From the IMG/VR virus record IMGVR_UViG_3300030107_002269, positions 1 to 22,091 of that record: DNA of 22,091 bases, one strand, 5' to 3'. The notes beneath the pieces are model-generated. The model saw nothing but the letters and a program-made list of their open reading frames with translations, searched no databases and was not told where the DNA came from. Positions 639 through 18,906 of this stretch are shown piece by piece. Position 1 is the first letter of the stretch, and the number at the start of each line of letters is the position of its first letter. The position numbers and the translations under genes were made by a program. This stretch comes from a virus.

Positions 639-653
639 GTAGCAAGTTGCTAC
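639..653. repeat. Early-region palindrome, copy 1 (G centre)
   Basis: GTAGCAAGTTGCTAC has 7-bp arms around one central base. It lies in the leader of promoter P1, with 23 nt between it and the ATG at 677. The following ACACTGGAAGGA resembles the ACACTGAAGGA after copy 2, so homology runs beyond the palindrome into the ribosome-binding site. Confidence 0.9.
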
Positions 654-676
654 ACGACACTGGAAGGATACGAACA

Positions 677-1423
677 ATGGCAACCAAGACAACAACAAGC
701 ATCAACGAGCGAATCGAAGCCATCTATACGGCAGTCACTGCTCTCCGAAAGCAGGCCATGATTTGCGCCGCGGATCTGGTGAATCTGATCTGGTTCGATG
801 AGGAAGCCAACACGGAGGCCATCATCGAGAAGACTGGTTTCAAGTCCATTTCCGAATGGTTCCGCAAGGATCCGAAGATGGGGCCATCCGCTTTCAATGC
901 TGTATATCTCGGCATCGTCAACAAGGCAGCTGTCGAGCATGTGAAGATCGACCCCGTCGATTCCATCGGTGCCGCGAAGATCCTGAAAGCCAATCTGATC
1001 TGGCAGAAGGGTGAGCCGGATGCGGGCCAGAAGATCAAGGAAGCAGGCCCGGAAATGGCTGTCAGTGAACAGCTTCACGCTCGACTGAGGGCATATAACG
1101 TGCTGATCAATCAGGGTTGGACGGCTATGGACGCTGCGAAGAAGGCATGCCAGATCGATGATCGAGGCGTCAATACAGAGGATTCCGAGGCAGTTGTGGC
1201 TGCTTCTGAAGAGGGCAGCGACAAGGCACAAACAAGTAGCACAACCAAATCCACTTTGGTGAAGGCGCAAGAGAGACTCCTGAGCGTACAGCAGCTCATG
1301 GCGAAGATGTCTCCAGAGGACTTCGAGACCCTGCTGGCCAGTCCACTGCTGAACAAGACCGCATGTCGCAAGGCGAGAAAAGAACAGCTGGAGAGAACCA
1401 AGGAAGCCACTGCTAAGAAGTGA
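677..1423 (+). CDS. Early protein of unknown function (248 aa)
   Basis: First full gene, behind promoter P1. ATG 677 is chosen because GGAAGGA (662-668) sits 8 nt upstream; the longer frame from 575 begins inside the promoter -10 region and cannot be on that transcript. The protein is soluble and mostly helical in appearance. The N-terminal 150 residues look like a compact domain (motif IIEKTGFKSISEWFRKD near residues 50-66). Next comes a low-complexity Ser/Thr/Glu linker near 168-192, then a Lys/Arg-rich C-terminal tail after a short LASPLLNK stretch. The basic tail and lead position would suit a DNA-binding or host-takeover protein, but I recognise no family. A strong terminator follows 21 nt after the stop, so it is its own transcription unit. 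Confidence 0.8.
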   Translation: MATKTTTSINERIEAIYTAVTALRKQAMICAADLVNLIWFDEEANTEAIIEKTGFKSISEWFRKDPKMGPSAFNAVYLGIVNKAAVEHVKIDPVDSIGAAKILKANLIWQKGEPDAGQKIKEAGPEMAVSEQLHARLRAYNVLINQGWTAMDAAKKACQIDDRGVNTEDSEAVVAASEEGSDKAQTSSTTKSTLVKAQERLLSVQQLMAKMSPEDFETLLASPLLNKTACRKARKEQLERTKEATAKK

Positions 1424-1444
1424 TCCGAATCAAACTTGAACAAG

Positions 1445-1477
1445 CCCCGGCCCTCTTCGGAGGGTTGGGGTTTTTTT
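1445..1477 (+). terminator. Strong intrinsic terminator after the first early gene
   Basis: An 11-bp stem, CCCCGGCCCTC with GAGGGTTGGGG (two G-U pairs), is closed by a TTCG tetraloop and followed by seven T. This is a textbook rho-independent terminator. It isolates the first gene from the next unit, which has its own promoter at 1604-1631. Confidence 0.93.
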
Positions 1478-1495
1478 GTGCCAGCCCGGCCCGGC

Positions 1496-1571
1496 GTGAT
1501 AGACGGCCATTCGGCTTCCATTGATCTGGTTCAGGGTGATAGACGGTATTCACCGGGGAGGGGTGATAGAC
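1496..1571. repeat. Three direct repeats of GTGATAGAC (iterons)
   Basis: GTGATAGAC occurs at 1496-1504, 1536-1544 and 1563-1571, with 40-bp and 27-bp start-to-start spacing, all in the same orientation. They fill the gap between the terminator and promoter P2. A related ATAGACATC is found at 590-598 just after P1. They could be activator or repressor sites for P2, or cores of promoters for the phage's own RNA polymerase; the sequence does not decide. Confidence 0.6.
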
Positions 1572-1603
1572 ATCGCTGGTCGCCGCCGAGGTCGTCGTAC
1601 CTC

Positions 1604-1631
1604 TTGACATGTTATATATGTATGGTACAAT
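1604..1631 (+). promoter_or_regulatory. Sigma70 early promoter P2
   Basis: TTGACA (1604-1609), a 16-bp spacer, then TACAAT (1626-1631) gives a near-perfect sigma70 promoter. Predicted initiation is near 1638. The palindrome at 1675-1689 lies about 37-52 nt into the transcript, a placement similar to that after P1. It should drive the cluster of early genes from 1711 onward. Confidence 0.82.
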
Positions 1632-1674
1632 ATGCCTGTGACGTCGGGGAAGGTCTCCGGCGTCCATCACTGGT

Positions 1675-1689
1675 GTAGCAAGTTGCTAC
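1675..1689. repeat. Early-region palindrome, copy 2 (G centre)
   Basis: GTAGCAAGTTGCTAC, extended by flanking T and A to a 17-bp dyad. It is 21 nt ahead of ATG 1711 and lies between promoter P2 and the ribosome-binding site. Confidence 0.9.
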
Positions 1690-1710
1690 AGAACACTGAA
1701 GGACTCACAT

Positions 1711-2034
1711 ATGAATGTCAAAGTGACTGCCCACAAGATTGGGGAGGTCGAGAGGGTAGGGTATTTAGATGCCCACGGCCATCGTTGTTACTACAGCATC
1801 ACCGTTCAGGGAGCTATAGATGCCGACCACCATGTAATGGTTTCTCGGATTATTGCATTTGATCACGGCGGCTGGGAAACCATGATTTTCTTCTGTAACG
1901 AGGAAACAAAAGAAGTCGAGTCTTGGATGCCTGTTTATGAAGTTCGTGGTTATGAAGAGATTGAACAGTCCGTATCGAATTACATCAAAACCGTAGCAAG
2001 TTGCTACAACAACCCAAAGGAGTCTTCAACATGA
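1711..2034 (+). CDS. Early protein of unknown function (107 aa)
   Basis: First gene of the P2 unit. AAGGA (1698-1702) is 8 nt ahead of ATG 1711. The 107-residue product is soluble, with alternating beta-like segments (VKVTAHKIGEVERVGYLD, HRCYYSITVQG) and no membrane segment or recognised motif. Its last coding stretch reads through palindrome copy 3, which contributes VASCY, and its TGA overlaps the ATG of the next gene, so translation is probably coupled. Unknown function. Confidence 0.7.
   Translation: MNVKVTAHKIGEVERVGYLDAHGHRCYYSITVQGAIDADHHVMVSRIIAFDHGGWETMIFFCNEETKEVESWMPVYEVRGYEEIEQSVSNYIKTVASCYNNPKESST
1993..2007. repeat. Early-region palindrome, copy 3 (G centre)
   Basis: GTAGCAAGTTGCTAC inside the 3' end of the preceding gene (read as VASCY), 23 nt ahead of ATG 2031. 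Preceded by CAAAACC, like the CAAACC before copy 1. Confidence 0.9.
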
Positions 2035-2507
2035 GACTTTCAATACCTTATGTTTCTGAGTTCTACAGCTTCAGCGTTCAAGCTGTTTTAGATTCAGAGT
2101 GGCAAGCAATCATCGACATCTGCCGGGACAACCGAAGAACACCAGAGATGATCCATCCGTCAGTCCTTAGGGCTATTCAAGCTCGTCTCAACCGAGCCTT
2201 CTGGGCTGATAATGAGCCATTCATTCTGGTCCCTAAGTTGGTCGATAACAACTTCGTCTTGATCCATGCCAAAATAGACGCGCACGGTATGGTTTGGGCT
2301 GTCGATCCCTCTGACTGTCCTCAGCCTTGGTACACGTTTGAACCTGAAGACTTCAAAGACGCCTTGAGTGACAATCTGGATATGAATCTCTCTTACAAGC
2401 ATTCAGCTCTTGAGCGAATCAAGAATGATCTCAAGGAGCAGGATGGAGAGGTTCCGCCTCTGGTCAAGATCGGTCCCGGTGGCGATTACGTCCGCGTATA
2501 TAACTGA
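2031..2507 (+). CDS. Early protein of unknown function (158 aa)
   Basis: ATG 2031 has AAAGGAG (2016-2022) 8 nt upstream and overlaps the stop of the previous gene. The 158-residue product is soluble and mixed alpha/beta, with an N-terminal helical part (residues 1-60) and a central strand-rich part (FILVPKLVDNNFVLIHAKID near 65-84) followed by a Pro/Trp-rich turn (PSDCPQPWYTFEPEDF). No membrane segment, catalytic motif or family is recognised. It ends just ahead of a hairpin and palindrome copy 4. Confidence 0.72.
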   Translation: MRLSIPYVSEFYSFSVQAVLDSEWQAIIDICRDNRRTPEMIHPSVLRAIQARLNRAFWADNEPFILVPKLVDNNFVLIHAKIDAHGMVWAVDPSDCPQPWYTFEPEDFKDALSDNLDMNLSYKHSALERIKNDLKEQDGEVPPLVKIGPGGDYVRVYN

Positions 2508-2524
2508 TCCTTTGGTTGGTGGGG

Positions 2525-2555
2525 GTGGGGAGTCCACGGTGTAGTGGCTCCTCAC
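2525..2555 (+). terminator. Hairpin between early genes (weak terminator or attenuator)
   Basis: GTGGGGAG pairs with CTCCTCAC (one G-U), then a bulged T, then CCAC with GTGG around a 6-nt loop, giving about 12 bp of stem. The following TCCTACATTTCATTT is only moderately T-rich, so termination would be partial. It could instead be a processing or stability hairpin. It sits 15 nt ahead of palindrome copy 4. Confidence 0.45.
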
Positions 2556-2570
2556 TCCTACATTTCATTT

Positions 2571-2585
2571 GTAGCAAGTTGCTAC
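2571..2585. repeat. Early-region palindrome, copy 4 (G centre)
   Basis: GTAGCAAGTTGCTAC directly abutting the AGGAG ribosome-binding site (2586-2590) of the gene at 2600. The gap to the ATG is 14 nt, the shortest of the set. Confidence 0.9.
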
Positions 2586-2599
2586 AGGAGATTGATGAA

Positions 2600-2845
2600 A
2601 TGAGTAAGAAGAAATTTCACACATTCACTCCAGCTCAGATTGCATGGAGAGTCGCGGAAACTGTGGCTGGGCGTCTGATTCCCACTGATTGGGAGACTCG
2701 GGACGAGTACACGAAGCAGACAGGCAGAAGGCTGCCCAGAGTTGAGAACTACTGGGGGCGTCACTGGGCTGATGTCGCTGGCTCTAAGGTTCCCGGCGAC
2801 CGTCAGGCATATCTGGATCACCTGCGGCGTATGGGGGGTAGATGA
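2600..2845 (+). CDS. Small early protein of unknown function (81 aa)
   Basis: ATG 2600 has AGGAG 9 nt upstream, right after palindrome copy 4. The product is 81 residues, basic, Trp- and Arg-rich (WRVAETVAGRLIPTDWETR; YWGRHWADVAGS), without a membrane segment or known motif. The size and charge fit the small host-takeover proteins of T7-like phages, but that is only a class resemblance. The stop TGA is immediately followed by the ATG of a membrane micro-protein. Confidence 0.65.
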   Translation: MSKKKFHTFTPAQIAWRVAETVAGRLIPTDWETRDEYTKQTGRRLPRVENYWGRHWADVAGSKVPGDRQAYLDHLRRMGGR

Positions 2846-2947
2846 ATGATTGTTTCTACTCTCGTTGTCTTGTTTCAGTTGGTTCTTCTAATTCTAGGAA
2901 TCTCATATCTGTTTCGTGCGGTGTTTGCAGACCGCTACAGGGAGTGA
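2846..2947 (+). CDS. Membrane micro-protein A (33 aa, single transmembrane segment)
   Basis: ATG 2846 directly follows the stop of the previous gene, with a GGGGGG tract (2833-2838) 7 nt upstream as ribosome-binding site. The 33-residue peptide has one strongly hydrophobic segment (about residues 2-23, VLFQLVLLILGISYLF) and a charged C-terminal tail (RAVFADRYRE), the usual inside-positive arrangement. It is followed 3 nt later by a second micro-protein of the same design. It is smaller than usual gene-calling cut-offs. Possible roles include superinfection exclusion, inhibition of a host membrane protein or a holin-like function; none can be chosen from sequence. Confidence 0.55.
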   Translation: MIVSTLVVLFQLVLLILGISYLFRAVFADRYRE

Positions 2948-2950
2948 GCC

Positions 2951-3049
2951 ATGAACTATGAAACTGTTTTACTGGGGGCTTCTTGGGTTGTTATATGTTT
3001 CAGCCTAGTTGCTGTTGTTTACGTTATTTGTGGAGACTCCAATGCCTAG
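2951..3049 (+). CDS. Membrane micro-protein B (32 aa, single transmembrane segment)
   Basis: ATG 2951 has AGGGAG (2939-2944) 6 nt upstream, and the stop at 3047-3049 overlaps the next gene's start by 8 nt, as in a compact operon. The 32-residue peptide has a short polar head (MNYE), a hydrophobic segment (about residues 5-27, LLGASWVVICFSLVAVVYVI) and a short CGDSNA tail. The pair with micro-protein A suggests two membrane peptides acting together, but they share no obvious sequence identity. Confidence 0.55.
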   Translation: MNYETVLLGASWVVICFSLVAVVYVICGDSNA

Positions 3050-3833
3050 AAATATCGTCATATACGACAGTCACAGTCTGTGGGACGATGAACCCATCAT
3101 CGTGGTCGTCACAGGACTCAATGGTCCCTCTCGGAATCCGAAGACTGGTCCCATGCTCCAGACATGGATCCTCAGGAGAGATGTCCACCCTGCGGTCGCT
3201 CTGGACACTGGGGAAGACAAATCCATCTGCGGTAACTGTGACCTCAGGCCGAAGGACGGCAAACGGGTTTGTTATGTCAACATCATGGGTCCCTCCGCTG
3301 TCTGGCGGGCCTTCCACGATGGCAAGTACGATTTCGTCACTCCAGAGGAAGCTGGCGATATCTGTGCTGGTCACAAGATCCGCCTTGGTGCTTACGGCGA
3401 CCCGGCGATGGTCCCTGCGGATGTGTGGCGGTCCCTGATCCGCAAGGCTTCTGGGACTACAGGCTACACGCATCAGTGGAGGACGATGGACCCCGCACTG
3501 CTTGACTTTTGCATGGCATCATGCGATAATACGGAAGATATAAGAGATGCGCAAGCTGCGGGCTGGCGGACATTTCGTTGTATCACATCTGACCAGACAC
3601 TGGAGCCAGATGAAATCATGTGTCCAGCTTCACCGGAGGCTGGGAAGTTGACTACCTGTGATCGTTGCGGGTTGTGTTCTGGTGCTATGGCTGATCGCAG
3701 CAAGCCTATACCGAACATCGCCATCACCGTTCATGGGCGTGGAGCAAAACACTTTGTAGCAAGTTGCTACAGTGAGGAAGGAGTCTCAGCTGCAAGTACC
3801 GACAAGGACCGAGTGGTCCGACAGGATGACTGA
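3042..3833 (+). CDS. Cysteine-rich conserved phage protein of unknown function (263 aa)
   Basis: ATG 3042 is chosen because GGAG (3032-3035) is 6 nt upstream; a TTG 33 nt earlier lacks a site. Two cysteine groups stand out: ICGNCDLRP followed by RVCYVN (C-x2-C-x9-C) near residues 65-80, and CPAS...TTCDRCGLCSG near residues 198-218. The segment IRLGAYGDPAMVP and GYTHQW between them looks like a conserved core that I associate with phage and plasmid proteins of unknown function. The cysteines could hold zinc or an iron-sulfur cluster (inference). The last codons run through palindrome copy 5 (VASCY) and overlap the next gene. Confidence 0.78.
   Translation: MPRNIVIYDSHSLWDDEPIIVVVTGLNGPSRNPKTGPMLQTWILRRDVHPAVALDTGEDKSICGNCDLRPKDGKRVCYVNIMGPSAVWRAFHDGKYDFVTPEEAGDICAGHKIRLGAYGDPAMVPADVWRSLIRKASGTTGYTHQWRTMDPALLDFCMASCDNTEDIRDAQAAGWRTFRCITSDQTLEPDEIMCPASPEAGKLTTCDRCGLCSGAMADRSKPIPNIAITVHGRGAKHFVASCYSEEGVSAASTDKDRVVRQDD
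3756..3770. repeat. Early-region palindrome, copy 5 (G centre)
   Basis: GTAGCAAGTTGCTAC within the 3' end of the cysteine-rich gene (read as VASCY). A strong GAGGAAGGAG site follows at 3774-3783, and an in-frame CTG at 3790 lies 19 nt after the palindrome, the same gap as other copies have to their start codons. Confidence 0.9.
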
Positions 3834-4053
3834 AATACGAGGCATGTTAGAGCTAGGATGGCTCAAGGATGCTCAAGACACAATCAAACAATGTCTCAAC
3901 GACCCTGATGACATGTTCATGTATACCGAAATGGAGCTGGCCTTTATGCTTGTAGTTTCATATCAGACTGAACCCATCAAGGGGAGACGCTGGGAAGACC
4001 CGAAGTGGGTTCTTTCCGAATTCAAAAGAATAGACAGGGAGACTCAGAAATGA
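3790..4053 (+). CDS. Small early protein of unknown function (87 aa from CTG, 75 aa from ATG 3826)
   Basis: The start is uncertain. ATG 3826 gives 75 residues but lacks a spaced ribosome-binding site. An in-frame CTG at 3790 lies 6 nt after GAAGGAG (3777-3783), and its distance from the palindrome fits the other cassettes, so I give the longer form. A GTG at 3772 has no site. The product is acidic to neutral and helical (MLELGWLKDAQDTIKQCLNDPDD), with no membrane segment or known motif. Its stop overlaps the next ATG (ATGA). Confidence 0.6.
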   Translation: MQVPTRTEWSDRMTEIRGMLELGWLKDAQDTIKQCLNDPDDMFMYTEMELAFMLVVSYQTEPIKGRRWEDPKWVLSEFKRIDRETQK

Positions 4054-4487
4054 GCAGCGATATTGGGTACGTTATTGAACGCTACATTGAATCGGAAGTC
4101 GAAACCGCTATTGACGGATATGATTTCTCTTCAATAATCAGCGATGCTATCTCCGACCATGATTTCACTGGCGATGTCGAGACTGCGGTCAATGACTGTG
4201 TGCATTGCATCTTGGAGGATCACATCTCCAGCAGTGAAGCTGTATACGACATGGTTCGCAACATGTTTCAGTCTACGGCATCTGGGGCTATTCTTCAGAT
4301 TCTGAAGAAAGGCATTGAGCAGTCACAATGTGATATTGCTGACTTGAGGACGAAGAATCGAGATATGACGGAACAACTCAGGGATCTCGCTATGGAGCAG
4401 ATCAACAGCAGGGTTCCTGAGGTTGCACTTGAAACTGCAAACCGTATCGAAATTGAATTGAATGACACTAAAGGAGAAGACGGATGA
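4050..4487 (+). CDS. Acidic, partly coiled-coil early protein (145 aa)
   Basis: ATG 4050 has AGGGAG (4036-4041) 8 nt upstream; the longer frame from GTG 4005 is discarded for lack of a site. The N-terminal 85 residues are very acidic and Asp/Ser-rich. Residues 90-125 (KKGIEQSQCDIADLRTKN onward) have the heptad-like pattern of a coiled coil. No family is recognised. Acidic early proteins of T7-like phages often mimic DNA, but nothing here is specific enough to claim that. It overlaps the next gene by ATGA. Confidence 0.72.
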   Translation: MSSDIGYVIERYIESEVETAIDGYDFSSIISDAISDHDFTGDVETAVNDCVHCILEDHISSSEAVYDMVRNMFQSTASGAILQILKKGIEQSQCDIADLRTKNRDMTEQLRDLAMEQINSRVPEVALETANRIEIELNDTKGEDG

Positions 4488-4708
4488 GCCGACAGAGCAC
4501 TTCCGCCAGCGGCCCCAATAAGGGGATCTATGTTCGTTTGGACCCGAAGACTGATCAGCAGCTTCGGTTGATGCAGGCCCGTACTTCCAAGCAGTTGGAA
4601 GCTCTCGGACTGCCACATGCAAAGCCGACCTTGTGTGACCTTGTGACGCACCTCGTCAAGGCTGGGATAAAGGCTGAGGTCACTGACCCCAACAGTCTTT
4701 TGAAATAG
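4484..4708 (+). CDS. Ribbon-helix-helix-like small DNA-binding protein (74 aa)
   Basis: Starts at ATG 4484 in a 4-nt overlap with the previous stop, after AAGGAG. After a short disordered head, residues 15-20 (IYVRLD) form a beta-strand-like segment followed by a helix (PKTDQQLRLMQARTSKQL). A second helix (TLCDLVTHLVKAGI, about 49-62) follows. The strand-helix-helix order and the YVRLD pattern fit the Arc/MetJ/CopG fold, whose dimers bind short palindromes. It lies in the middle of the palindrome-bearing region, 62 bp ahead of copy 6, so it is the best candidate in this window for an early-gene regulator. The fold call is by eye. Confidence 0.6.
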   Translation: MSRQSTSASGPNKGIYVRLDPKTDQQLRLMQARTSKQLEALGLPHAKPTLCDLVTHLVKAGIKAEVTDPNSLLK

Positions 4709-4769
4709 GACTCTCTTCGCTGAGTGGGGTGCGCATACTTTGATCACGCACAATATGTTTTATTCAACC

Positions 4770-4784
4770 GTAGCAACTTGCTAC
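4770..4784. repeat. Early-region palindrome, copy 6 (C centre, reverse orientation)
   Basis: GTAGCAACTTGCTAC is the reverse complement of copies 1-5. It is 16 nt ahead of GTG 4801, with AGGAGGG between them, and is preceded by TTCAACC, like the CAAACC of copies 1 and 3. Confidence 0.9.
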
Positions 4785-4800
4785 ACATAGGAGGGCCAAC

Positions 4801-5682
4801 GTGGTCTCTATTCCAAACAAACCTACCGTATTCGACCCCAAGAACTGGGGAGATCCACTGACTCCCAAGCAGGTCGGCAACATCCGTGTTCCTGTTCAGG
4901 TTCCTGACTCGTACCGAGCGTTCCCACATGAGCAGTACATCAGTCTCATTGAGCGTGAGCTGGACAAGCAGGGCTTCGTCGCTTCAGAGGGCGTGCATTA
5001 TGCGTGCAAATCCCGTGTACCCAAGGACAGCAACGGCAACCCAAAGATCAACGATCTTCCAGAACGTGGGCGATTCCTGAGCCTGTGGGGTGTCAAGCAC
5101 CCTTTGCTTCCTGACATCCCCGGTCTTAGCTGGGAAGTCGGCGGCAACAACAGCTACGACATGTCCTGTTCCAACGAGATCTTGTTGGCACGCCGTGTTT
5201 TGATCTGCTCTAACGGTATGGTCCTGTCTAAGATCGACAGCCGTATGCGCAAGAAGCACACCAAGGGCATCGACCGCGATTACGACGGACAATTTGAGCG
5301 TCTTCAGATCATGGTTCAGAAGGCGATTGGCAACCTACACACTATGGCGACGGAGGAAGCTGGCCGTATCGAGAACCGCAAGCAGGTCGAGGTCACTGAC
5401 GATGACATGCGGTATCTGTGCGTCGAAGCTGCCAAGGACAAGGTCATTGGTTGGGCTGCTATCGAGCGTGTTATGGAGCATTGGCATAACCCGGAGCATG
5501 TAGAGTTCAAGGACCGCAATCTGTGGTCAGCTGAGAACGCCTTTACAAGCAACGACCGAGGTGCTAATGTGATGACTCAGGGAACACGGTTCTCTCGACT
5601 CGATTCCATTATTGCCAAGCGGTACGGCGAAGAAAGTTGTAGCAACTTGCTACAGTCCGCCAACAGCCCAGCTGATTGGTGA
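4801..5682 (+). CDS. DUF932-like phage protein (293 aa)
   Basis: GTG 4801 lies 5 nt after AGGAGGG (4789-4795). The pattern around residues 115-145 (SWEVGGNNSYDMSCSNEILLARRVLICSNGM, shown here only in part: NNSYD...CSNEILLARRVLICSNGM) matches my memory of the DUF932 phage/plasmid-like family, with the expected NSYD, a helix and a CSNG turn, followed by the long helical middle and a C-terminal NAFT segment (near 253). The function of DUF932 proteins is not established. The gene is flanked by the two reverse-oriented palindromes, and the second lies inside its last codons. A strong terminator follows, so this is the end of the early unit. Confidence 0.7.
   Translation: MVSIPNKPTVFDPKNWGDPLTPKQVGNIRVPVQVPDSYRAFPHEQYISLIERELDKQGFVASEGVHYACKSRVPKDSNGNPKINDLPERGRFLSLWGVKHPLLPDIPGLSWEVGGNNSYDMSCSNEILLARRVLICSNGMVLSKIDSRMRKKHTKGIDRDYDGQFERLQIMVQKAIGNLHTMATEEAGRIENRKQVEVTDDDMRYLCVEAAKDKVIGWAAIERVMEHWHNPEHVEFKDRNLWSAENAFTSNDRGANVMTQGTRFSRLDSIIAKRYGEESCSNLLQSANSPADW
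5639..5653. repeat. Early-region palindrome, copy 7 (C centre, reverse orientation)
   Basis: GTAGCAACTTGCTAC within the last codons of the DUF932-like gene (read as CSNLL). No gene starts within 25 nt; the next start is 104 nt away beyond a terminator. This is the last copy seen in the window. Confidence 0.9.
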
Positions 5683-5699
5683 TTCCTAGATCTCATGTC

Positions 5700-5745
5700 G
5701 TCCCGGCCTTCGGTGATATTTCCACCGTTGGTCGGGACTCCTTTT
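5700..5745 (+). terminator. Nested-hairpin intrinsic terminator at the end of the early region
   Basis: The outer stem GTCCCGGCC/GGTCGGGAC (one G-U) encloses TT, an inner stem CGGTG/CACCG with a 7-nt loop, and TT. It is followed by TCCTTTT. It lies 17 nt after the DUF932-like gene and ahead of the integrase block, the position of the early terminator in T7-like transcription programmes, although here it precedes the RNA polymerase gene, so readthrough or another promoter is needed to express it. Confidence 0.85.
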
Positions 5746-5757
5746 ATGGAGATTCAG

Positions 5758-5952
5758 ATGTTCAGATTCAAATATAAATATGCGTGGAAAGCTGAGTGGA
5801 AAAGCCGGTGGGATTTGAACCATTACGACAGAACGGCTTCTGGCTATTCACGCACTGAGGAAGGTGCGGAGCGAAACGCTTGGGCCGCAGCCAATAAAGA
5901 AAGAAAGCTCGGGGCGCAGAGATGTACCATCGAGGTTATAAGGCTTTACTGA
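5758..5952 (+). CDS. Small conserved-looking protein (64 aa)
   Basis: ATG 5758 is used because GGAG (5748-5751) lies 6 nt upstream and earlier in-frame starts fall inside the terminator. The protein is rich in aromatic and basic residues (FKYKYAWKAEWKSRWDLNHY), followed by a helical segment (RTEEGAERNAWAAANKERK) and a strand-like end (CTIEVIRLY). No family is recognised. The minus strand of codons for WKSRWDLN has the layout of a tRNA 3' end, so part of this gene may double as an attachment site. Confidence 0.6.
   Translation: MFRFKYKYAWKAEWKSRWDLNHYDRTASGYSRTEEGAERNAWAAANKERKLGAQRCTIEVIRLY
5797..5821 (-). other. tRNA 3'-end mimic; candidate attP core
   Basis: Read on the minus strand from 5821 to 5797, the parts fall in tRNA order: GG, T-loop TTCAAAT, CC, three T-stem bases CAC, a seven-base acceptor strand CGGCTTT, discriminator T and CCA. 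The five-base T-stem is not completed on the 5' side, so this is not a tRNA gene. Phage integrases often use tRNA 3' ends as attachment sites and keep exactly such a fragment near int, which starts 280 bp away. The match is short and lies inside a coding frame, so chance is possible. Confidence 0.35.
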
Positions 5953-5971
5953 TGCCAATCACTCAACCCGG
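5952..5971 (+). repeat. Upstream copy of the integrase gene's first 20 bp
   Basis: ATGCCAATCACTCAAC plus CCGG here matches 6101-6120 at 19 of 20 positions. In this copy the frame reads MPITQPGE and stops at 5976-5978, so it forms an 8-codon mini-ORF. The A of its ATG is the last base of the previous gene's TGA stop. Confidence 0.7.
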
Positions 5972-5981
5972 AGAATAATAC

Positions 5982-6101
5982 ATGATACAGATCAGTCAAA
6001 GAGTACAGGGCAACATCGCCACGGCTGTCACCCCCAAGGACAGGTCAAAGTCTCGCCCTAATCCCAAGGCGAGGTTCAAGAAAAAGAAAAAGGGTAAATA
6101 A
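5982..6101 (+). CDS. Very basic small protein (39 aa)
   Basis: ATG 5982 has CGGAG (5969-5973) 8 nt upstream, and the TAA overlaps the integrase ATG (TAATG), so the two are probably co-translated. The C-terminal half is dominated by Lys and Arg (RSKSRPNPKARFKKKKKGK), which suggests nucleic-acid binding. It lies between the two copies of the integrase-start repeat. No family is recognised; it might assist the integrase as a directionality or bending factor, but this is only positional inference. Confidence 0.5.
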   Translation: MIQISQRVQGNIATAVTPKDRSKSRPNPKARFKKKKKGK

Positions 6102-7111
6102 TGCCAATCACTCAACGCGGTAAATCGTGGCAGGTCTCGGTCACCAAAGATGGCCGAAGGATACGCAAGACGTTCAGGAAACTGGACGAAGCGCAGGTTT
6201 TTGAGTTGGAATGCAAGGCGGCTCTTATTTCTGGTGGTCCCCTCCCTGTAGAGGCGAAGAACCACCGATCTGGGGTCCCTGCGACGTTTGGAGGCATGGC
6301 GGAACACATTTGGAAGCTGGAATGGTCGAAGCAGAAGGCTGCAAACGCTACCTATAGCGTCATGCGTCTTACTTGCTCCTATTTCGGTGATGACACAGAG
6401 ATCTCAAGCATTGATTCGTATGCCATTGACCAGTTCAAGTTGTATTTGGAACGTCAAGGCAATAAGCCAGCAACCGTAAATAGAAAACTAGCCATAGTCA
6501 GTAAGGTGTTCAGATACGCTCATCGCTATGGTCTTATCGAACGTAAATTAGAGTTGACCAAGCAGCGGGAACCCCGTGGTCGCATCAAGTACTACAGTAG
6601 AGAGGAGGAGCAGGAGATGTTGGAGCGTATGGATGACCCAGATCTCAGGGACTTCTTCATCGTCCTCATAGACACCGGGATGCGGCGGGGGGAGGTCCTC
6701 AGTCTGGAGTGGGAGGATGTGGATCTAGAGCAACGGACGTTGACGTTGGCCGACCCCGAGCGGATCAAATCGTCTATCACAAGGTTGGTCCCTGCGACCG
6801 TCCGAGTCACTGCTGTGCTGAAGTCTCGACTTGAGCAAGGGGAAATCCGGCCCTTCGACTTTACAGGGCCTCAAATGGATTACGCTGCTGCGTGTTTCAA
6901 AAAATGCTGCCCATCAGAACAGGATGTCTCCGCAATCTTCCATACCTGTAGACATACGTTCATCTCTAGACTTGTTCAGAATGGCGTTCCTATTGTTGCC
7001 GTAAAAGAACTGGCAGGACACAACGACATCAGGACAACAATGCGTTATAGTCATCTTGCCCCGAGTAATTTGGTGGATGCTATTGCTACTTTGGAGAACC
7101 CAAATGGGTAA
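6101..7111 (+). CDS. int: Tyrosine-family site-specific integrase (336 aa)
   Basis: Cuts and rejoins phage and host DNA at attachment sites. The N-terminal part (1-55) is a basic arm-binding-type domain with GKSWQVSVTKDGRRIRKTF. A core-binding SAM-like domain follows at about 60-150. The catalytic domain has all expected residues: R195 in TGMRRGE, K223 in the beta hairpin, H281 and R284 in HTCRHTF, H307 in LAGH and nucleophile Y316 in MRYSHL. The length is normal for a phage integrase, so it looks intact. It starts at TAATG with the basic 39-aa gene and ends overlapping the RNA polymerase start by 8 nt. Int next to the RNA polymerase gene is known in some marine T7-like phages. Confidence 0.96.
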   Translation: MPITQRGKSWQVSVTKDGRRIRKTFRKLDEAQVFELECKAALISGGPLPVEAKNHRSGVPATFGGMAEHIWKLEWSKQKAANATYSVMRLTCSYFGDDTEISSIDSYAIDQFKLYLERQGNKPATVNRKLAIVSKVFRYAHRYGLIERKLELTKQREPRGRIKYYSREEEQEMLERMDDPDLRDFFIVLIDTGMRRGEVLSLEWEDVDLEQRTLTLADPERIKSSITRLVPATVRVTAVLKSRLEQGEIRPFDFTGPQMDYAAACFKKCCPSEQDVSAIFHTCRHTFISRLVQNGVPIVAVKELAGHNDIRTTMRYSHLAPSNLVDAIATLENPNG

Positions 7112-9503
7112 GCATAATCAACAGCGGCTAGAACAAGAGATGATCGACCTTGGTCAGAAGCGGTACTGGAAGCGAGTCCGCCGTGCTAAGGAAACAAATC
7201 TGGAGTCCACCACCTCAGTAGGTCAGCACTTGCTTGCTAACTCTGTAGCGGAGCTTACGGACGCAATTAAGAGATGGATCAAAGACGCCAAGGCCGCTCC
7301 CGGTCGTCGCCACCGAGCGTTGGAACATATGGAGATGCTCCCGGCTGATGTCATAGCAGGTCTCACGGCTCGCTGTGTGTTGGACTGCATCTCTACCGAA
7401 CGAAAGATCGTATCCACTGCCAACAACATTGGTCGAATCTTGGAGCATGAAATACGGTTTAGACAACTCAAAGAAGAACACCCCTCTCTGTGGACTCAAA
7501 TACAGAGGAGCCTAGACAAATATAAGTCTGCTGAAACCAAATCTAGATTTGTCAACAAGACGCTGAAGTACCACGACTTGGTCATGCACTCTTGGGATCG
7601 TAAGGTCTCCATATCTGTGGGTCTAACGTGCATTGAGCTGATGCGGCAGTCCACAGGCGTTATCGACGTAGTGACTCGCAAGGATCCTAGAGGAAAGTCG
7701 TACACCTCCGTGGTCCCTAGCGACGATCTACTTAAGTGGCTGAAGGACTCGCACAGCTACAACGAGATCCTGAATCCAGTGTGGCTCCCTATGGTGGAAA
7801 GGCCAGTTGATTGGACTAATCCGTGGATTGGCGGATACCAAAGTGCTTCAATGCCTCGAAGACCTCTGGTAAAGACGGACGATAACGCTTATCTGGAAGA
7901 GCTGGCACTCAGTCCTATGTCGGAGATATATAAATCCTGCAACATACTTCAGAGGACCGGATTCAGGATAAACAAATTCGCTGATTCTCTCCTACGTCAC
8001 TGTTGGGAACGTAATCTTCCTGTCGGGGGCTTCCCCACCAGCGAAAATGACCCAGTTCCAAACAAGCCTTCGGATATCGCTACAAATATGGATGCTCGTA
8101 GGGAGTGGAGGAGAGCAGCAGCTAAAGTTCACTTTGAGAATGAGCGACAGAAATCTAAAAGGATTACGGTAGCTAAGGCTCTCCAGCTGGCTTCCAAGTT
8201 CAAAGACGAGACGCTGTATTACACAAAGTCTTTGGATCGCAGGGCGAGAGGTTATTACACGCAGCATCCGCTACAGCCACATGCTTCTCAGTATGTAAGG
8301 TCGTTGCTTGAGTTCTCTTCAGGCAAGCCAATTACTGAAGGCGGCTTGAGGTGGTTATATATAGATGCAGCAAACAAGTGGGGACTGGACAAAGAACCAT
8401 TTGAGGCTCGCATAGCGTTTGTCGAAGAAAATATAGGTTTGATAAGGTCTGTAGGGGCTGATCCAACTTCAAATATGGTTTGGGCAGACGCGGATAACCC
8501 GTTTGGATTTGCTTGCGTCTGTGATGAGATAAACAAGCTGCACGAAAACGGGTCGAAACATATCAGTCACCACCCTGTGGGCATCGACAGCACTAATCAA
8601 GGTCTTGGGATCATTGGTCTGGTGATGTATGACGAAGTTATCGCTGCTATGGCAAACATAACTGACTCAGATGCCCCTCAGGACCCTTACAAGAACGTGG
8701 CTGACGGTACTCGTAAGTTGTTATATTTGGATGCCTCAAACCCCTACTCCAAGACTTGGCTTGACTTTGGAATTGACAGAAAAACCACCAAGAGGCCGAC
8801 TATGACTCTTAGCTACGGCTCTACATTGTTCTCCTGTCGAGAGTACACAGCGGAGTGGTTCTATGACCAGCTGAAGACAGGCCGAGATAACCCGTTTGGG
8901 GATGAGACATACAGGCCGTGTTACTACTTGGCAGGTAAGATTTGGGAGTCGATTGGATCTGTTGTCGGATCTGCTTTGGATCTCTTGTCTTGGCTTCGGG
9001 CAGTTGCTGAGTTGTGCATCGAACATGAAGTGATTCCTAGATGGGGGACTCCGCAGTTGTTCCCTGTTAAAATGGAATACCAGAAGCAGTCGAAGTATGC
9101 GGTGAAGACCTTGGTAAATGGTCGGATACTAAATCACAGGATTAACGTGCCAACATCTGAGGCAAATCGCCGTAAAACTGTGAATTCTATTGTTGCAAAC
9201 TTTATTCACTCTCTGGACGGCCTTGGGGGGATCCTTGGAAGGTCTCTTAATTTGAGCTACGACCGGGGGGTTACTGATGTGTTTGCAATACACGACGAGG
9301 TAGATGTTCACGCCTCTAATGTAGATGTATTTGGTCGATCTGTTCGTGAAGCTACTGCGGAGATCTTTATGGAGGATCAGTTGACATTGTTTGCAAATTC
9401 AATTAACGTATTACTTCCATCTGAGGTAGAGGTTCCACCAATGCCCGCCAGAGGAAGTTTGGATGTGACGAAAGTCTTGGACTCAAAGTACTATTGGAAC
9501 TAA
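7104..9503 (+). CDS. T7-like single-subunit RNA polymerase (799 aa)
   Basis: Transcribes the middle and late phage genes from its own promoters. ATG 7104 has GGAG (7093-7096) 7 nt upstream and overlaps the end of int. Motif A aspartate is D495 (GIDSTNQG), motif B is K563, R564 and Y571-G572 (KRPTMTLSYGS; the 8-residue K-to-Y spacing equals T7 K631-Y639), and motif C is H730-D731 (FAIHDEVD). NFIHSLDG lies just before motif C as in T7. At 799 residues it is about 80 shorter than T7 RNA polymerase (883), with a diverged N-terminal half. Motif A is unusual: T7 has DASCSGIQH, here DSTNQGLGI. Its promoters are not firmly identified in this window. Confidence 0.95.
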   Translation: MGKHNQQRLEQEMIDLGQKRYWKRVRRAKETNLESTTSVGQHLLANSVAELTDAIKRWIKDAKAAPGRRHRALEHMEMLPADVIAGLTARCVLDCISTERKIVSTANNIGRILEHEIRFRQLKEEHPSLWTQIQRSLDKYKSAETKSRFVNKTLKYHDLVMHSWDRKVSISVGLTCIELMRQSTGVIDVVTRKDPRGKSYTSVVPSDDLLKWLKDSHSYNEILNPVWLPMVERPVDWTNPWIGGYQSASMPRRPLVKTDDNAYLEELALSPMSEIYKSCNILQRTGFRINKFADSLLRHCWERNLPVGGFPTSENDPVPNKPSDIATNMDARREWRRAAAKVHFENERQKSKRITVAKALQLASKFKDETLYYTKSLDRRARGYYTQHPLQPHASQYVRSLLEFSSGKPITEGGLRWLYIDAANKWGLDKEPFEARIAFVEENIGLIRSVGADPTSNMVWADADNPFGFACVCDEINKLHENGSKHISHHPVGIDSTNQGLGIIGLVMYDEVIAAMANITDSDAPQDPYKNVADGTRKLLYLDASNPYSKTWLDFGIDRKTTKRPTMTLSYGSTLFSCREYTAEWFYDQLKTGRDNPFGDETYRPCYYLAGKIWESIGSVVGSALDLLSWLRAVAELCIEHEVIPRWGTPQLFPVKMEYQKQSKYAVKTLVNGRILNHRINVPTSEANRRKTVNSIVANFIHSLDGLGGILGRSLNLSYDRGVTDVFAIHDEVDVHASNVDVFGRSVREATAEIFMEDQLTLFANSINVLLPSEVEVPPMPARGSLDVTKVLDSKYYWN

Positions 9504-12405: not shown

Positions 12406-14213
12406 TGGACATTGTTATATTTGACATCGAGACGAACGCTATTAAAAACTTCAGGACTTTACTTGGACTGAAGACAATTCACTGCATATCTCTTGCTACA
12501 CCCACTACCGACGCTGTTCTTGTTCCAATAGATGAGGCCCTTGAACGCCTCAGACTTGCTGACGTAATCGTAGGACACAACATACAATCGTTTGATATTC
12601 CAGCCATCCAGAGGCTGTACCCTGAGTGGAAGCCTGAGGGCTGCGTCAGAGACACTTTGGTAATGTCCCGAATGCTGTGGCCTGACATCCAGAGAGAGGA
12701 CTGGCAGGCTCCTGAGTTTCCTAAGAACCTCGCTGGCCGTCACTCCCTGAAGTCTTGGGGCTACAGGCTTGGGATGTTGAAAGGAGATTTCGGTGAGACA
12801 ACAGACTGGGAAGTGTTCACTGAAGAGATGGGGCAGTACTGCTGTCAGGATGTAGAGGTAACCAAAGCTCTGTGGAATAAGATCGAGGAAGAGAAGCCTT
12901 CGGATTTTTCGACGATGCTGGAACACGAATTCGCTCAGGTCGTACAAGAACAAGAGACCAACGGATTCGCTTTCGACGTAGACGCCGCTAGAGAGCTGCA
13001 CTCAGAACTACTAGCAGAGAAGGATTCTATCCAGCGGTCCTTGAAGAATCTGTTTCCTCCAGTCAGGGTGGAGATGAAGACTCCTCAGTTCTATGTGGAC
13101 CCGATTGATGATGTTCAATACACATTGAAAGGGGACGCTCCTGTTGCAATTAGATCTAGACTTCTCAGGGGCAAGCCTAAATACAAAGAGACCCCTTTCA
13201 ACCCTTCATCCCGAGTTCAAATTGCCAACAACTTGATCAAGAAGTATGGGTGGCAGCCAGAGGAGTTCACAGGAGAAGGGCGACCTAAAGTTGATGAGTC
13301 TGTTCTTAGCCAACTTGAATACCCTGAAGCTAAGGTTCTAGTCAGATATTTGACAATTATTAAAAGGCTGGGCCAACTAGCTGACGGCAGGGAGGCGTGG
13401 CTTAGGGTGGAACAGGATGGCCGCATCCACGGTAGGGTCAACCCCTGTGGAGCTGTGACCTCCCGCTGCACCCACAGCAGTCCCAACATCGCTCAAGTCC
13501 CACGGGTGGGAGCTTTGTGGGGAACCGAGTGTAGGGAGCTGTTTATTGCTCCTCCTAATCATGTTCTTGTTGGTGTAGATATGAAAGGACTAGAGCTTAG
13601 GTGCTTGGCCCACTACACTTACAAATTTGACGGAGGTAAATACGTTAAAGAGATTCTTGAGGGCGACATACACGAAGCCAATAGGATGGCGGCGGGGCTT
13701 GAGTCTCGCAATGACGCTAAGACGTTTATATATGCTTTCCTTTATGGTGCTGGGGATGCAAAGCTCGGATCTATTGTTGATGGAGGCCGGGTCGAAGGGT
13801 CTCGAATGAGAAGCAAGTTCCTTAAGAAGATGCCAGCTATTGAGCGGCTTCAGAGCGGCATCAAGCTCTCTCTTCAAAGCCGTAATTACCTTAAAGCTAT
13901 TGATGGCCGACACCTGCGTATCAGGTCACAGCACTCGGCTTTAAATACCCTGCTACAATCGGCAGGTGCTATTGCAATGAAATTAGCTACTTGTATCCTT
14001 CACAGGAAACTCAGATCTCATGGATGGGATAAAGACGTTTTACAGGTGGCTCATATTCATGACGAAATCCAACTTCAAGTACGCACGGAGATAGCGGAAG
14101 ATGTCGGAAGGCTTGCAGTACAGTCAATGTGTGAGGCCGGTGAGGAACTCAAGTTCCGATGCCCCCTCGACGGAGACTATAAAATCGGAAGAAACTGGGC
14201 AGAAACCCACTGA
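12405..14213 (+). CDS. Family A DNA polymerase, T7 gp5-like (602 aa)
   Basis: Replicative polymerase with proofreading. Exonuclease motifs: D7 and E9 (FDIETNA), VGHNIQSFD near 56-64, and YCCQDVEV near 145. Polymerase motifs: A (VGVDMKGLELRCLAHY), B (AKTFIYAFLYGAG with K439 and Y443) and C (VAHIHDEIQ). The finger residue equivalent to E. coli Pol I F762 and T7 Y526 is tyrosine. The length is about 100 residues less than T7 gp5 (704). The region holding the thioredoxin-binding loop (about residues 220-270, before FNPSSR) is shortened and lacks the obvious T7 basic patch, though LLRGKPKYK remains. A homing-endonuclease-like ORF overlaps its last 113 nt. Confidence 0.96.
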   Translation: MDIVIFDIETNAIKNFRTLLGLKTIHCISLATPTTDAVLVPIDEALERLRLADVIVGHNIQSFDIPAIQRLYPEWKPEGCVRDTLVMSRMLWPDIQREDWQAPEFPKNLAGRHSLKSWGYRLGMLKGDFGETTDWEVFTEEMGQYCCQDVEVTKALWNKIEEEKPSDFSTMLEHEFAQVVQEQETNGFAFDVDAARELHSELLAEKDSIQRSLKNLFPPVRVEMKTPQFYVDPIDDVQYTLKGDAPVAIRSRLLRGKPKYKETPFNPSSRVQIANNLIKKYGWQPEEFTGEGRPKVDESVLSQLEYPEAKVLVRYLTIIKRLGQLADGREAWLRVEQDGRIHGRVNPCGAVTSRCTHSSPNIAQVPRVGALWGTECRELFIAPPNHVLVGVDMKGLELRCLAHYTYKFDGGKYVKEILEGDIHEANRMAAGLESRNDAKTFIYAFLYGAGDAKLGSIVDGGRVEGSRMRSKFLKKMPAIERLQSGIKLSLQSRNYLKAIDGRHLRIRSQHSALNTLLQSAGAIAMKLATCILHRKLRSHGWDKDVLQVAHIHDEIQLQVRTEIAEDVGRLAVQSMCEAGEELKFRCPLDGDYKIGRNWAETH

Positions 14214-14556
14214 TCTGGCTTATGTAGCTGGAATACTGGACGGGGAGGGGTGCTTTAGGTGGCACAACTCCCCCACCATTGGGGTGGATACGACTGCTAA
14301 GGAGACCGCTCAAGCTCTTTATGACATATGCGGAGGGACCTGCTCTGTCTTAAAGAGAAAAACAAATTCAGGAAACGTCGTGTTTAGGTGGGCGATATAC
14401 GGGACTAATGCGGTAAACCTATGCAAGACGTTGATTCCATACCTAACTGAAAAGGCGTACCAAGCAGAAGTCTTAATTGCTTTGGTAAGATACCCACCGA
14501 ACTCAGCGATGCGAGAGTCCCTGAAACAACGTCTTACCCGTCTTAAGAGGAAATAG
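14101..14556 (+). CDS. LAGLIDADG-type homing endonuclease-like protein (151 aa)
   Basis: Residues 39-50 (LAYVAGILDGEG) are a clear single LAGLIDADG-type motif. The following region (GGTCSVLKRKTN; VVFRWAIYG; LCKTLIPYLTEKAYQAEVL) has the strand-helix pattern of that family. With one motif it would act as a homodimer that cuts a long asymmetric site. ATG 14101 has GGAG 10 nt upstream, but the first ~37 residues are just polymerase DNA read in another frame; the recognisable domain begins right after the polymerase stop. A start at GTG 14131 or 14140 is also possible. No intron or intein is seen in the polymerase. Confidence 0.8.
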   Translation: MSEGLQYSQCVRPVRNSSSDAPSTETIKSEETGQKPTDLAYVAGILDGEGCFRWHNSPTIGVDTTAKETAQALYDICGGTCSVLKRKTNSGNVVFRWAIYGTNAVNLCKTLIPYLTEKAYQAEVLIALVRYPPNSAMRESLKQRLTRLKRK

Positions 14557-18135: not shown

Positions 18136-18906
18136 ATGGCTGATTATCAAAAAGTTGAAGTAGTTAAAGACCAACCAACGGAAGCATTTTCCGAGGAGGA
18201 CTTGGCGAACCTTGAACAATCGGAAGAAACTCAACAGATCGAAGAGCCGGTTCAGGAACGACCCGAATGGTTGCCTGAGAAATTCAACAGTGCAGAAGAC
18301 TTTGCACAAGCCTATTCCGAATTGGAAGCCGCCTACACCCAGTCTCGACAGGGTGACGAAAGCGGAGAAGAGGGCGTTGAAGAGGTTAATGATGTTTCTG
18401 GCCCAATTTCAACCGAGTCTTTGAATGAGTATTCCACCGAGTTCTTTGAAACAGGTGACGTTTCTGAGGAATCCCGCAAAGCTATTGTTGATATGGGAAT
18501 TCCCCGCGAATATGTAGACGCTTATATCTCAGGTCAACAAGCTGTTCTCAAGAATCACTTTGACGGCATCTACAGTGAAGTAGGTGGAGAAGAGTCATAT
18601 AACGAAATGACTAGCTGGGCTGCTGAAAACCTACCTGAGGGTGAGCAAGAGGCGTTTAATAACGCTGTATCTAAAGGCAATCCTGACGAAATGATGTTTG
18701 CAATTCGTAGCCTCCACAGTCGTTGGACGGCTGCTGGAAATGCTCCCAGAGATCTGCTTCAAGGCAGCACCAGTTCTGAGTTCTCGGGAAGCGGCTTCCG
18801 CTCCCTTGCAGAGTTGACAGAAGCCATGAAAGATCCACGGTATGCGAAAGACGCAGCGTATCGTCAAGATATTGAAACGCGATTGAATAACTCCAACATC
18901 CTGTGA
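18136..18906 (+). CDS. Capsid assembly scaffold, T7 gp9-like (256 aa)
   Basis: Guides procapsid assembly and then leaves the head. It is strongly acidic, especially residues 1-110. The motif PEWLPEKFNSAEDFAQAYSE (near 42-61) is typical of T7-like scaffolds, and the C-terminal part ends in a helical, charged region (AELTEAMKDPRYAKDAAYR) that in the family contacts the capsid protein. The place between portal and capsid is as in T7. Its stop lies 8 nt ahead of the next gene's ATG. Confidence 0.93.
   Translation: MADYQKVEVVKDQPTEAFSEEDLANLEQSEETQQIEEPVQERPEWLPEKFNSAEDFAQAYSELEAAYTQSRQGDESGEEGVEEVNDVSGPISTESLNEYSTEFFETGDVSEESRKAIVDMGIPREYVDAYISGQQAVLKNHFDGIYSEVGGEESYNEMTSWAAENLPEGEQEAFNNAVSKGNPDEMMFAIRSLHSRWTAAGNAPRDLLQGSTSSEFSGSGFRSLAELTEAMKDPRYAKDAAYRQDIETRLNNSNIL

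Follow-up and report, generated by a model that had tools for sequence, protein, structure and literature searches.

The DNA analysed here (hereafter the window) is the IMG/VR record IMGVR_UViG_3300030107_002269 at its full length of 22,091 bases. It is part of the genome of a T7-like phage that encodes an integrase and an RNA polymerase of its own, the remainder of that genome lying outside view, and the element in question is the palindrome GTAGCAASTTGCTAC. Seven exact copies stand between 639 and 5653 (starts 639, 1675, 1993, 2571, 3756, 4770, and 5639), accompanied by a degraded copy, GTCGCAAGTTGCAAC (288-302, two mismatches), which is possibly a weak site; none of them is assigned a strand. 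Beyond these eight, no match with up to three mismatches was found anywhere in the 22,091 bases, there being no copy past 5653, and shuffled versions of the window gave, at the same tolerance, a mean of 0.40 matches and at most 3. The repeat that a sequence-only reading of this DNA had described, with seven intact 15-mers, a degraded one at 288, and none after 5653, was recovered in full, and its judgement that chance could not account for the repeat was borne out. The centre base is G in copies 1-5 and C in the copies at 4770 and 5639, so that these two are the exact reverse complement, i.e., the site in reverse orientation.

The first copy (639-653) begins 38 nt before the start of gene 1 (677-1423, + strand, as are the hairpin, the second promoter, and the ORFs given with coordinates in this paragraph), which encodes a 248-aa orphan, and 56 nt past the -10 box of a sigma70-type promoter matching the consensus at 11 of 12 positions (TTGACA-16-CATAAT, 556-583, + strand). 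Gene 1 is followed by a terminator-like hairpin (1442-1473) and by another 11/12 sigma70-type promoter (TTGACA-16-TACAAT, 1604-1631), and copy 2 (1675-1689) starts 44 nt past the -10 box of the latter, 21 nt before the ATG at 1711 of a 107-aa open reading frame (ORF) with no assigned function (1711-2034). Copy 3 (1993-2007) lies in frame in the 3' end of that ORF, 23 nt before the ATG at 2031 of a 158-aa ORF, likewise with no assigned function (2031-2507), and copy 4 (2571-2585) precedes an ATG at 2600 by 14 nt. Copy 5 (3756-3770) stands in frame in the 3' end of g5 (3042-3833), a member of the phrog_2554 family of unknown function, and encodes FVASCYS. The two reversed copies bracket g9 (4801-5682), which has a weak DUF932 match and is conserved in the clade: copy 6 (4770-4784) lies 16 nt before its GTG, and copy 7 (5639-5653) is in frame near its end, about 45 bp ahead of a terminator-like hairpin. 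Altogether, five copies are followed by a Shine-Dalgarno sequence and a start codon at gaps of 23, 21, 23, 14, and 16 nt, in agreement with the 14-23 nt noticed earlier, and the copies at 1993, 3756, and 5639 are at the same time contained in the 3' end of the preceding ORF.

Sixteen related contigs were gathered from IMG/VR by RNA polymerase and g9 searches, and in all 14 whose early region is at least partly covered a palindrome is repeated several times there. These palindromes (TCGGAGANTCTCCGA, TCGGGGANTCCCCGA, CCGGGGANTCCCCGG, CCGGGGGATTCCCCGG, GTTGGGANTCCCAAC, CGCACANTGTGCG, TTCGGGTGATCACCCGAA, TCTGGGACGTCCCAGA, ATCTGGGNNNNCCCAGAT, TCTGTAGNNCTACAGA, and CTTGTCATGACAAG) are near-perfect, 13-18 bp long, and present in 3-15 copies per genome with few departures; counting three later-found members, at least ten different sequences occur. 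A blind pattern scan for the TCGGRGA classes recovered one of the three, L073, a previously unseen clade member with six copies, which we count in favour of an operator, and a scan with g5 added the other two, L091 and L096. In first-order Markov versions of G000, G006, and G013, on which this control rests (that of G005 was spoiled by runs of N), no palindrome with arms of 6 exceeded two copies. No palindrome with arms of 6 recurred three or more times in the stretches read of published Pelagibacter phages and of CRP-125, CRP-118, CRP-3, S2B, Pasto, and HTVC115P, and a scan of IMG/VR for the window palindrome followed by AGGA returned four single-copy contigs, as expected by chance. Several palindrome classes (G002, G006, G009, G010, G012, G013, G014, and L073) have GANTC at their centre, the site methylated by CcrM of Alphaproteobacteria; in these phages GANTC is 1.1-1.7 times as frequent as base composition predicts.

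The sites stay at homologous positions, within coding genes even at homologous codons, but their sequence changes, and does so at every site of a genome together. At a single position in g5, the proteins read YRCFRVNK-SVALQ-K in G003 and G004, YRCFRVNK-SGTSQ-K in G007, and YRCFRVRS-CHDK in G005, each of the segments SVALQ, SGTSQ, and CHDK being encoded by the palindrome of its own genome. Within the RNA polymerase gene, the peptide IGESPI is common to G006, G002, and G014, encoded by TCGGAGAGTCTCCGA in two of them and by TCGGGGAATCCCCGA in the third, the symmetric changes being silent and the peptide unaltered; the same position reads VGNPN in G013 and G010 and has no site in G000, G001, G004, G005, and G007. 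The same behaviour is seen at a site in the DNA polymerase gene and at the end of g9, where the position of copy 7 is taken by other palindromes in relatives. Reading frames vary from site to site, which indicates that selection acts on the symmetry of the DNA and not on the peptide; a peptide-level role for the tags SVALQ, SGTSQ, GESP, and VASCY was rejected, since the frames differ and many sites are non-coding. The wider picture is one of phage-specific sets of probable operators whose specificity has changed in place many times.

Nor does the palindrome class follow the RNA polymerase tree. The TCGGAGA class is found in G002, whose sister G014 has TCGGGGA, and in G006, whose sister G001 has CGCACA, while TCGGGGA is shared by G014 and L073; forcing same-class genomes into clades was rejected by the approximately unbiased (AU) test (p = 2.4e-7 and 1.4e-3). 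As the classes also occupy sites inside the RNA polymerase gene, exchange of the early region alone does not explain this conflict. G004, G005, and G007, although close relatives, carry three different palindromes, and on this ground a site for a host factor was rejected.

As to the protein that might read the palindrome, G004 and G007 have different palindromes, and their RNA polymerase, primase, and DNA polymerase are 94-96% identical; in the stretch between terminase and DNA polymerase, the remaining genes of clear synteny match at 55-97%. Gene 1 is the one clear early gene without a counterpart, no match being detectable between the two; an 83-aa small frame beside it, which may not be a gene, has no match either. 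In the seven genomes compared, gene 1 occupies the same place (as it does in L091), encodes 226-310 aa, and has a site 38-223 nt upstream, and between lineages its similarity is at most marginal (G000-G014, G004-G005). By eye, its products have a helical front part, a charged linker, and a helical tail, which AlphaFold could not confirm. Position and elimination make gene 1 the best candidate but do not prove it, and on these sequence comparisons we consider it evenly balanced whether its product is the protein that binds the palindrome.

That the 15-mer is a DNA operator of a phage protein appears, with good confidence, the probable reading of these comparisons, and the earlier suggestion of a shared DNA operator is strongly supported by the relatives, in which the sites persist but are spelled as different palindromes. 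That the sites serve repression or immunity is about as likely as not. In the mechanism that we propose, a homodimeric DNA-binding protein, most likely the gene 1 product, would occupy all copies and probably stop or hinder the host RNA polymerase at leader, intergenic, and intragenic sites, whereby the early and replication region might be kept off, or its shut-off timed, with gene 1 autoregulated through the copy at 639. Each lineage would possess its own protein/site pair acting as an immunity or self-recognition code, and this pair would have been switched repeatedly, all sites of one genome changing together. For promoters matching at least 10 of 12 consensus positions, there were nine cases of a site 15-70 nt past the -10 box, where chance predicts 1.3; none of 5000 randomisations reached that number. 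Such sites lie past the transcription start, so a dimer sitting there would obstruct elongating polymerase and not its initial binding, and the intragenic and pre-terminator sites agree with this picture. Taken as a whole, multi-site transcriptional control by a phage-encoded dimer, probably the gene 1 product, with a lineage-specific code of the immunity type, is the reading towards which we lean slightly. We see roughly an even chance for a broader proposal, namely that gene 1 represents an undescribed, fast-evolving regulator family found in T7-like phages and in marine phages of the HMO-2011 type, with palindromic operators specific to each lineage, and that the 3-15 operators of a genome, those embedded in the polymerase genes for RNA and DNA included, change to a new specificity together, repeatedly and without moving.

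The sequence-only reading had also allowed for a stem-loop beside each ribosome-binding site, and control at the RNA level, by a transcribed hairpin near that site or by an antitermination, processing, or protein-binding element resembling boxB or the start-associated sequences of Cluster K, has to be weighed against the operator. All nine classes folded yield RNA hairpins (-1.9 to -10.2 kcal/mol), five window copies precede starts, and the conserved leader placement after promoters would suit an RNA element too. Symmetry, however, continues through the centre in most classes (AASTT in the window, ACGT in G007, CATG in 15 of 15 sites of G005), at bases that would be unpaired in an RNA loop and so need no conserved pairing; the hairpin of G005, at -1.9 kcal/mol, is very weak; the orientation of the centre base flips freely, 6:6 in G006; and the G013 site at 108 lies upstream of a -35 box. 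Across 15 genomes, a Shine-Dalgarno sequence and start follow only 40 of 114 sites (background 16%), and many sites lie inside genes, so that start-codon association was rejected as a general rule and the stem-loop is disfavoured; we regard control through RNA as improbable. The description of the palindrome as a mark of early gene cassettes fits the window, but in relatives replication genes have sites as well, and on rare occasions a site lies close to a late gene. An equally improbable alternative is that the sites are parS-like, bound by a protein of the ParB or KorB kind, and serve partition or DNA organisation, either in a plasmid-like prophage or in packing the genome, gene regulation being a secondary effect. 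Perfect palindromes of 13-18 bp, several per genome and some of them intragenic, do recall parS and the KorB operator network, the gene 1 of G006 has a weak PHROG match to a ParB-like family (E 0.0024), and a plasmid prophage would account for members without integrase. Against it stand the enrichment of sites just downstream of promoters, the integrase in nine records, and the lack of a credible match to PF02195 (ParB_N) in ten genomes with positive controls, the one weak match falling in a 256-aa frame of the window (18136-18906).

More serious, though still unlikely in our view, is the alternative that another phage protein or a host protein is the regulator and that gene 1 is merely a hypervariable anti-defence gene sitting first. 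An anti-defence function is frequent for the first early gene in T7-like phages, T7 gene 0.3 being an example, and g8 (74 aa, 4484-4708, + strand) is ribbon-helix-helix-like, by eye alone. The three palindromes in G004, G005, and G007 nevertheless argue against host switching, and apart from gene 1 all clear early genes of G004 have their counterpart in G007. The g8-position protein was rejected as the specificity factor, its N-terminal strand being nearly identical in G004 and G005, whose palindromes differ.

Returning to the gene 1 operator model, several observations weigh against it. Gene 1 has no convincing Pfam, PHROG, or PDB match and no recognisable DNA-binding domain, its AlphaFold models were unusable (pLDDT 45-46), and an anti-defence gene in first place would be hypervariable as well. 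The sites are so dense that one upstream of gene 1 is weak evidence by itself, and no pair of same-class genomes both having gene 1 was found, which leaves the covariation test without its positive half; protein scans with the gene 1 products of the window, L013, and L009 each matched nothing except themselves. Moreover, eight relatives (G003, G004, G005, G007, G008, G009, G011, and G012) yielded no tyrosine integrase even though the interval from g9 to RNA polymerase is covered, and prophage scans of 84,980 species genomes with RNA polymerase and g9 found none, although the hosts may be unsampled.

The tyrosine integrase is present in nine of the 17 records, that is, the window and eight of the 16 relatives. 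In seven of the other eight no serine recombinase was found either, and one of the eight, G012, has direct terminal repeats (DTR). Since the sites are intact in these members, their function is not tied to integration, and early-gene timing, a carrier state, or the exclusion of relatives are possible roles there.

In the window, the tyrosine integrase (6101-7111) is followed by the T7-like single-subunit RNA polymerase (7104-9503; both are on the + strand), whose gene itself bears a site in some relatives, and the window further encodes a gp2.5-like protein, a RusA-like resolvase, a primase/helicase, a DNA polymerase, and an exonuclease. Most of the early genes are orphans. Megablast of the window gave no match among phage records, and the published phages nearest to it in RNA polymerase, at 32-35% identity, belong mainly to the Pelagibacter phages. 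Three direct copies of GTGATAGAC(GG) (1496-1506, 1536-1546, and 1563-1571) lie immediately ahead of the promoter at 1604 and are possibly a second control element; GTGATAG stretches resembling them follow gene 1 in some relatives. The DNA polymerase gene is overlapped at its end by a reading frame for an HNH endonuclease (phrog_5046, 14101-14556), read in a different phase.

The same plan recurs in an isolate. Phage HMO-2011, whose host is the SAR116 bacterium Puniceispirillum marinum, has an integrase and five exact copies of AGTCCGNNNNCGGACT at 53878, 54807, 60, 1261, and 1926 of its circular map (60, 1261, and 1926 in L176; 4879 and 5808, corresponding to 53878 and 54807, in L178), which surround gp74, a 205-aa orphan, and the early genes gp01-gp03. 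Its copy at 1926 falls within the 3'-terminal part of gp02, ahead of the gene that follows, just as the window copy at 1993 does; HMO-2011 thus repeats the plan of the window, with gp74 analogous to gene 1. The text of a 2022 study of HMO-2011-type phages (PMC9038755) mentions no palindromes, inverted repeats, or repressor. An HMO-2011-like contig, L164, contains TTACAGANTCTGTAA eight times, plus one near copy, within 2282-7700. It is among the contigs with a g5 homologue that bear repeated palindromes of their own, the others being L142, L151, and L160 (TGGCCTGCNNGCAGGCCA, about 7577-9443) and L157 (CATAACAANTTGTTATG, 4314-5970). Homologues of g5 also occur in the T7-like Caulobacter phage S2B and Roseobacter phage CRP-118, and in Cluster A mycobacteriophages, where they lie close to the right-hand, early end.

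These observations touch the question, studied mainly in mycobacteriophages, of how immunity specificity changes when many operators must shift together with the repressor. Here one clade offers at least ten specificities at homologous positions, some of them between phages about 95% identical in core replication proteins, and operators within coding sequence make silent symmetric changes directly readable. They also suggest a form of early-gene control that T7-like phages and marine phages of the HMO-2011 type could use in place of the known MarR module, and the palindrome class could mark immunity groups in viral metagenomes. Because HMO-2011 has been isolated, the sites around gp74 make the operator idea testable.

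Among known systems, the repressor of the temperate phage phiC31 acts at many palindromic sites (conserved inverted repeats) across the early region, though in a different phage group. The temperate T7-like phages described so far (among them LUZ100, HTVC019P, and Pasto) have a MarR-like gene by the integrase (PMC10134795), and the integrase of our clade, like theirs, adjoins the RNA polymerase gene; beside or upstream of the integrase, MarR (PF12802) had no match in the clade and weak matches in HTVC019P, CRP-125, and Pasto, and the regions read of these three contain no repeated palindrome. In Cluster K mycobacteriophages, start-associated sequences (SAS) are repeated just upstream of starts in the non-structural half of the genome, with unknown function (PMC3203893), but they are non-palindromic and lie 3-7 bp from the start, whereas the clade sites are not generally tied to starts and some are intragenic. 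KorB of plasmid RK2 is a single element-encoded dimer acting at OB operators near and far from promoters (PMC11790492), much as we propose for the clade, in ten genomes of which, unlike RK2, no credible ParB_N domain was found. In Cluster A mycobacteriophages such as L5 and Trixie, which have an integrase or parABS, the repressor halts elongation at stoperators, many short sites over the genome whose sequence varies from one related phage to another in step with the repressor, with a site at the repressor gene (PMC6550527, PMC9283540). The many near-identical short sites (seven in the window, 3-15 in relatives) are alike, yet stoperators are 13 bp, asymmetric, and mostly in one orientation, in contrast to the 13-18 bp palindromes of the clade; as a positive control, the asymmetric repeat, and no repeated palindrome, was found in Adzzy and RhynO, and the Adzzy repressor, from a different phage group, has no detectable similarity to gene 1. 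The leader and intragenic sites of the clade would fit a repressor that stops elongation.

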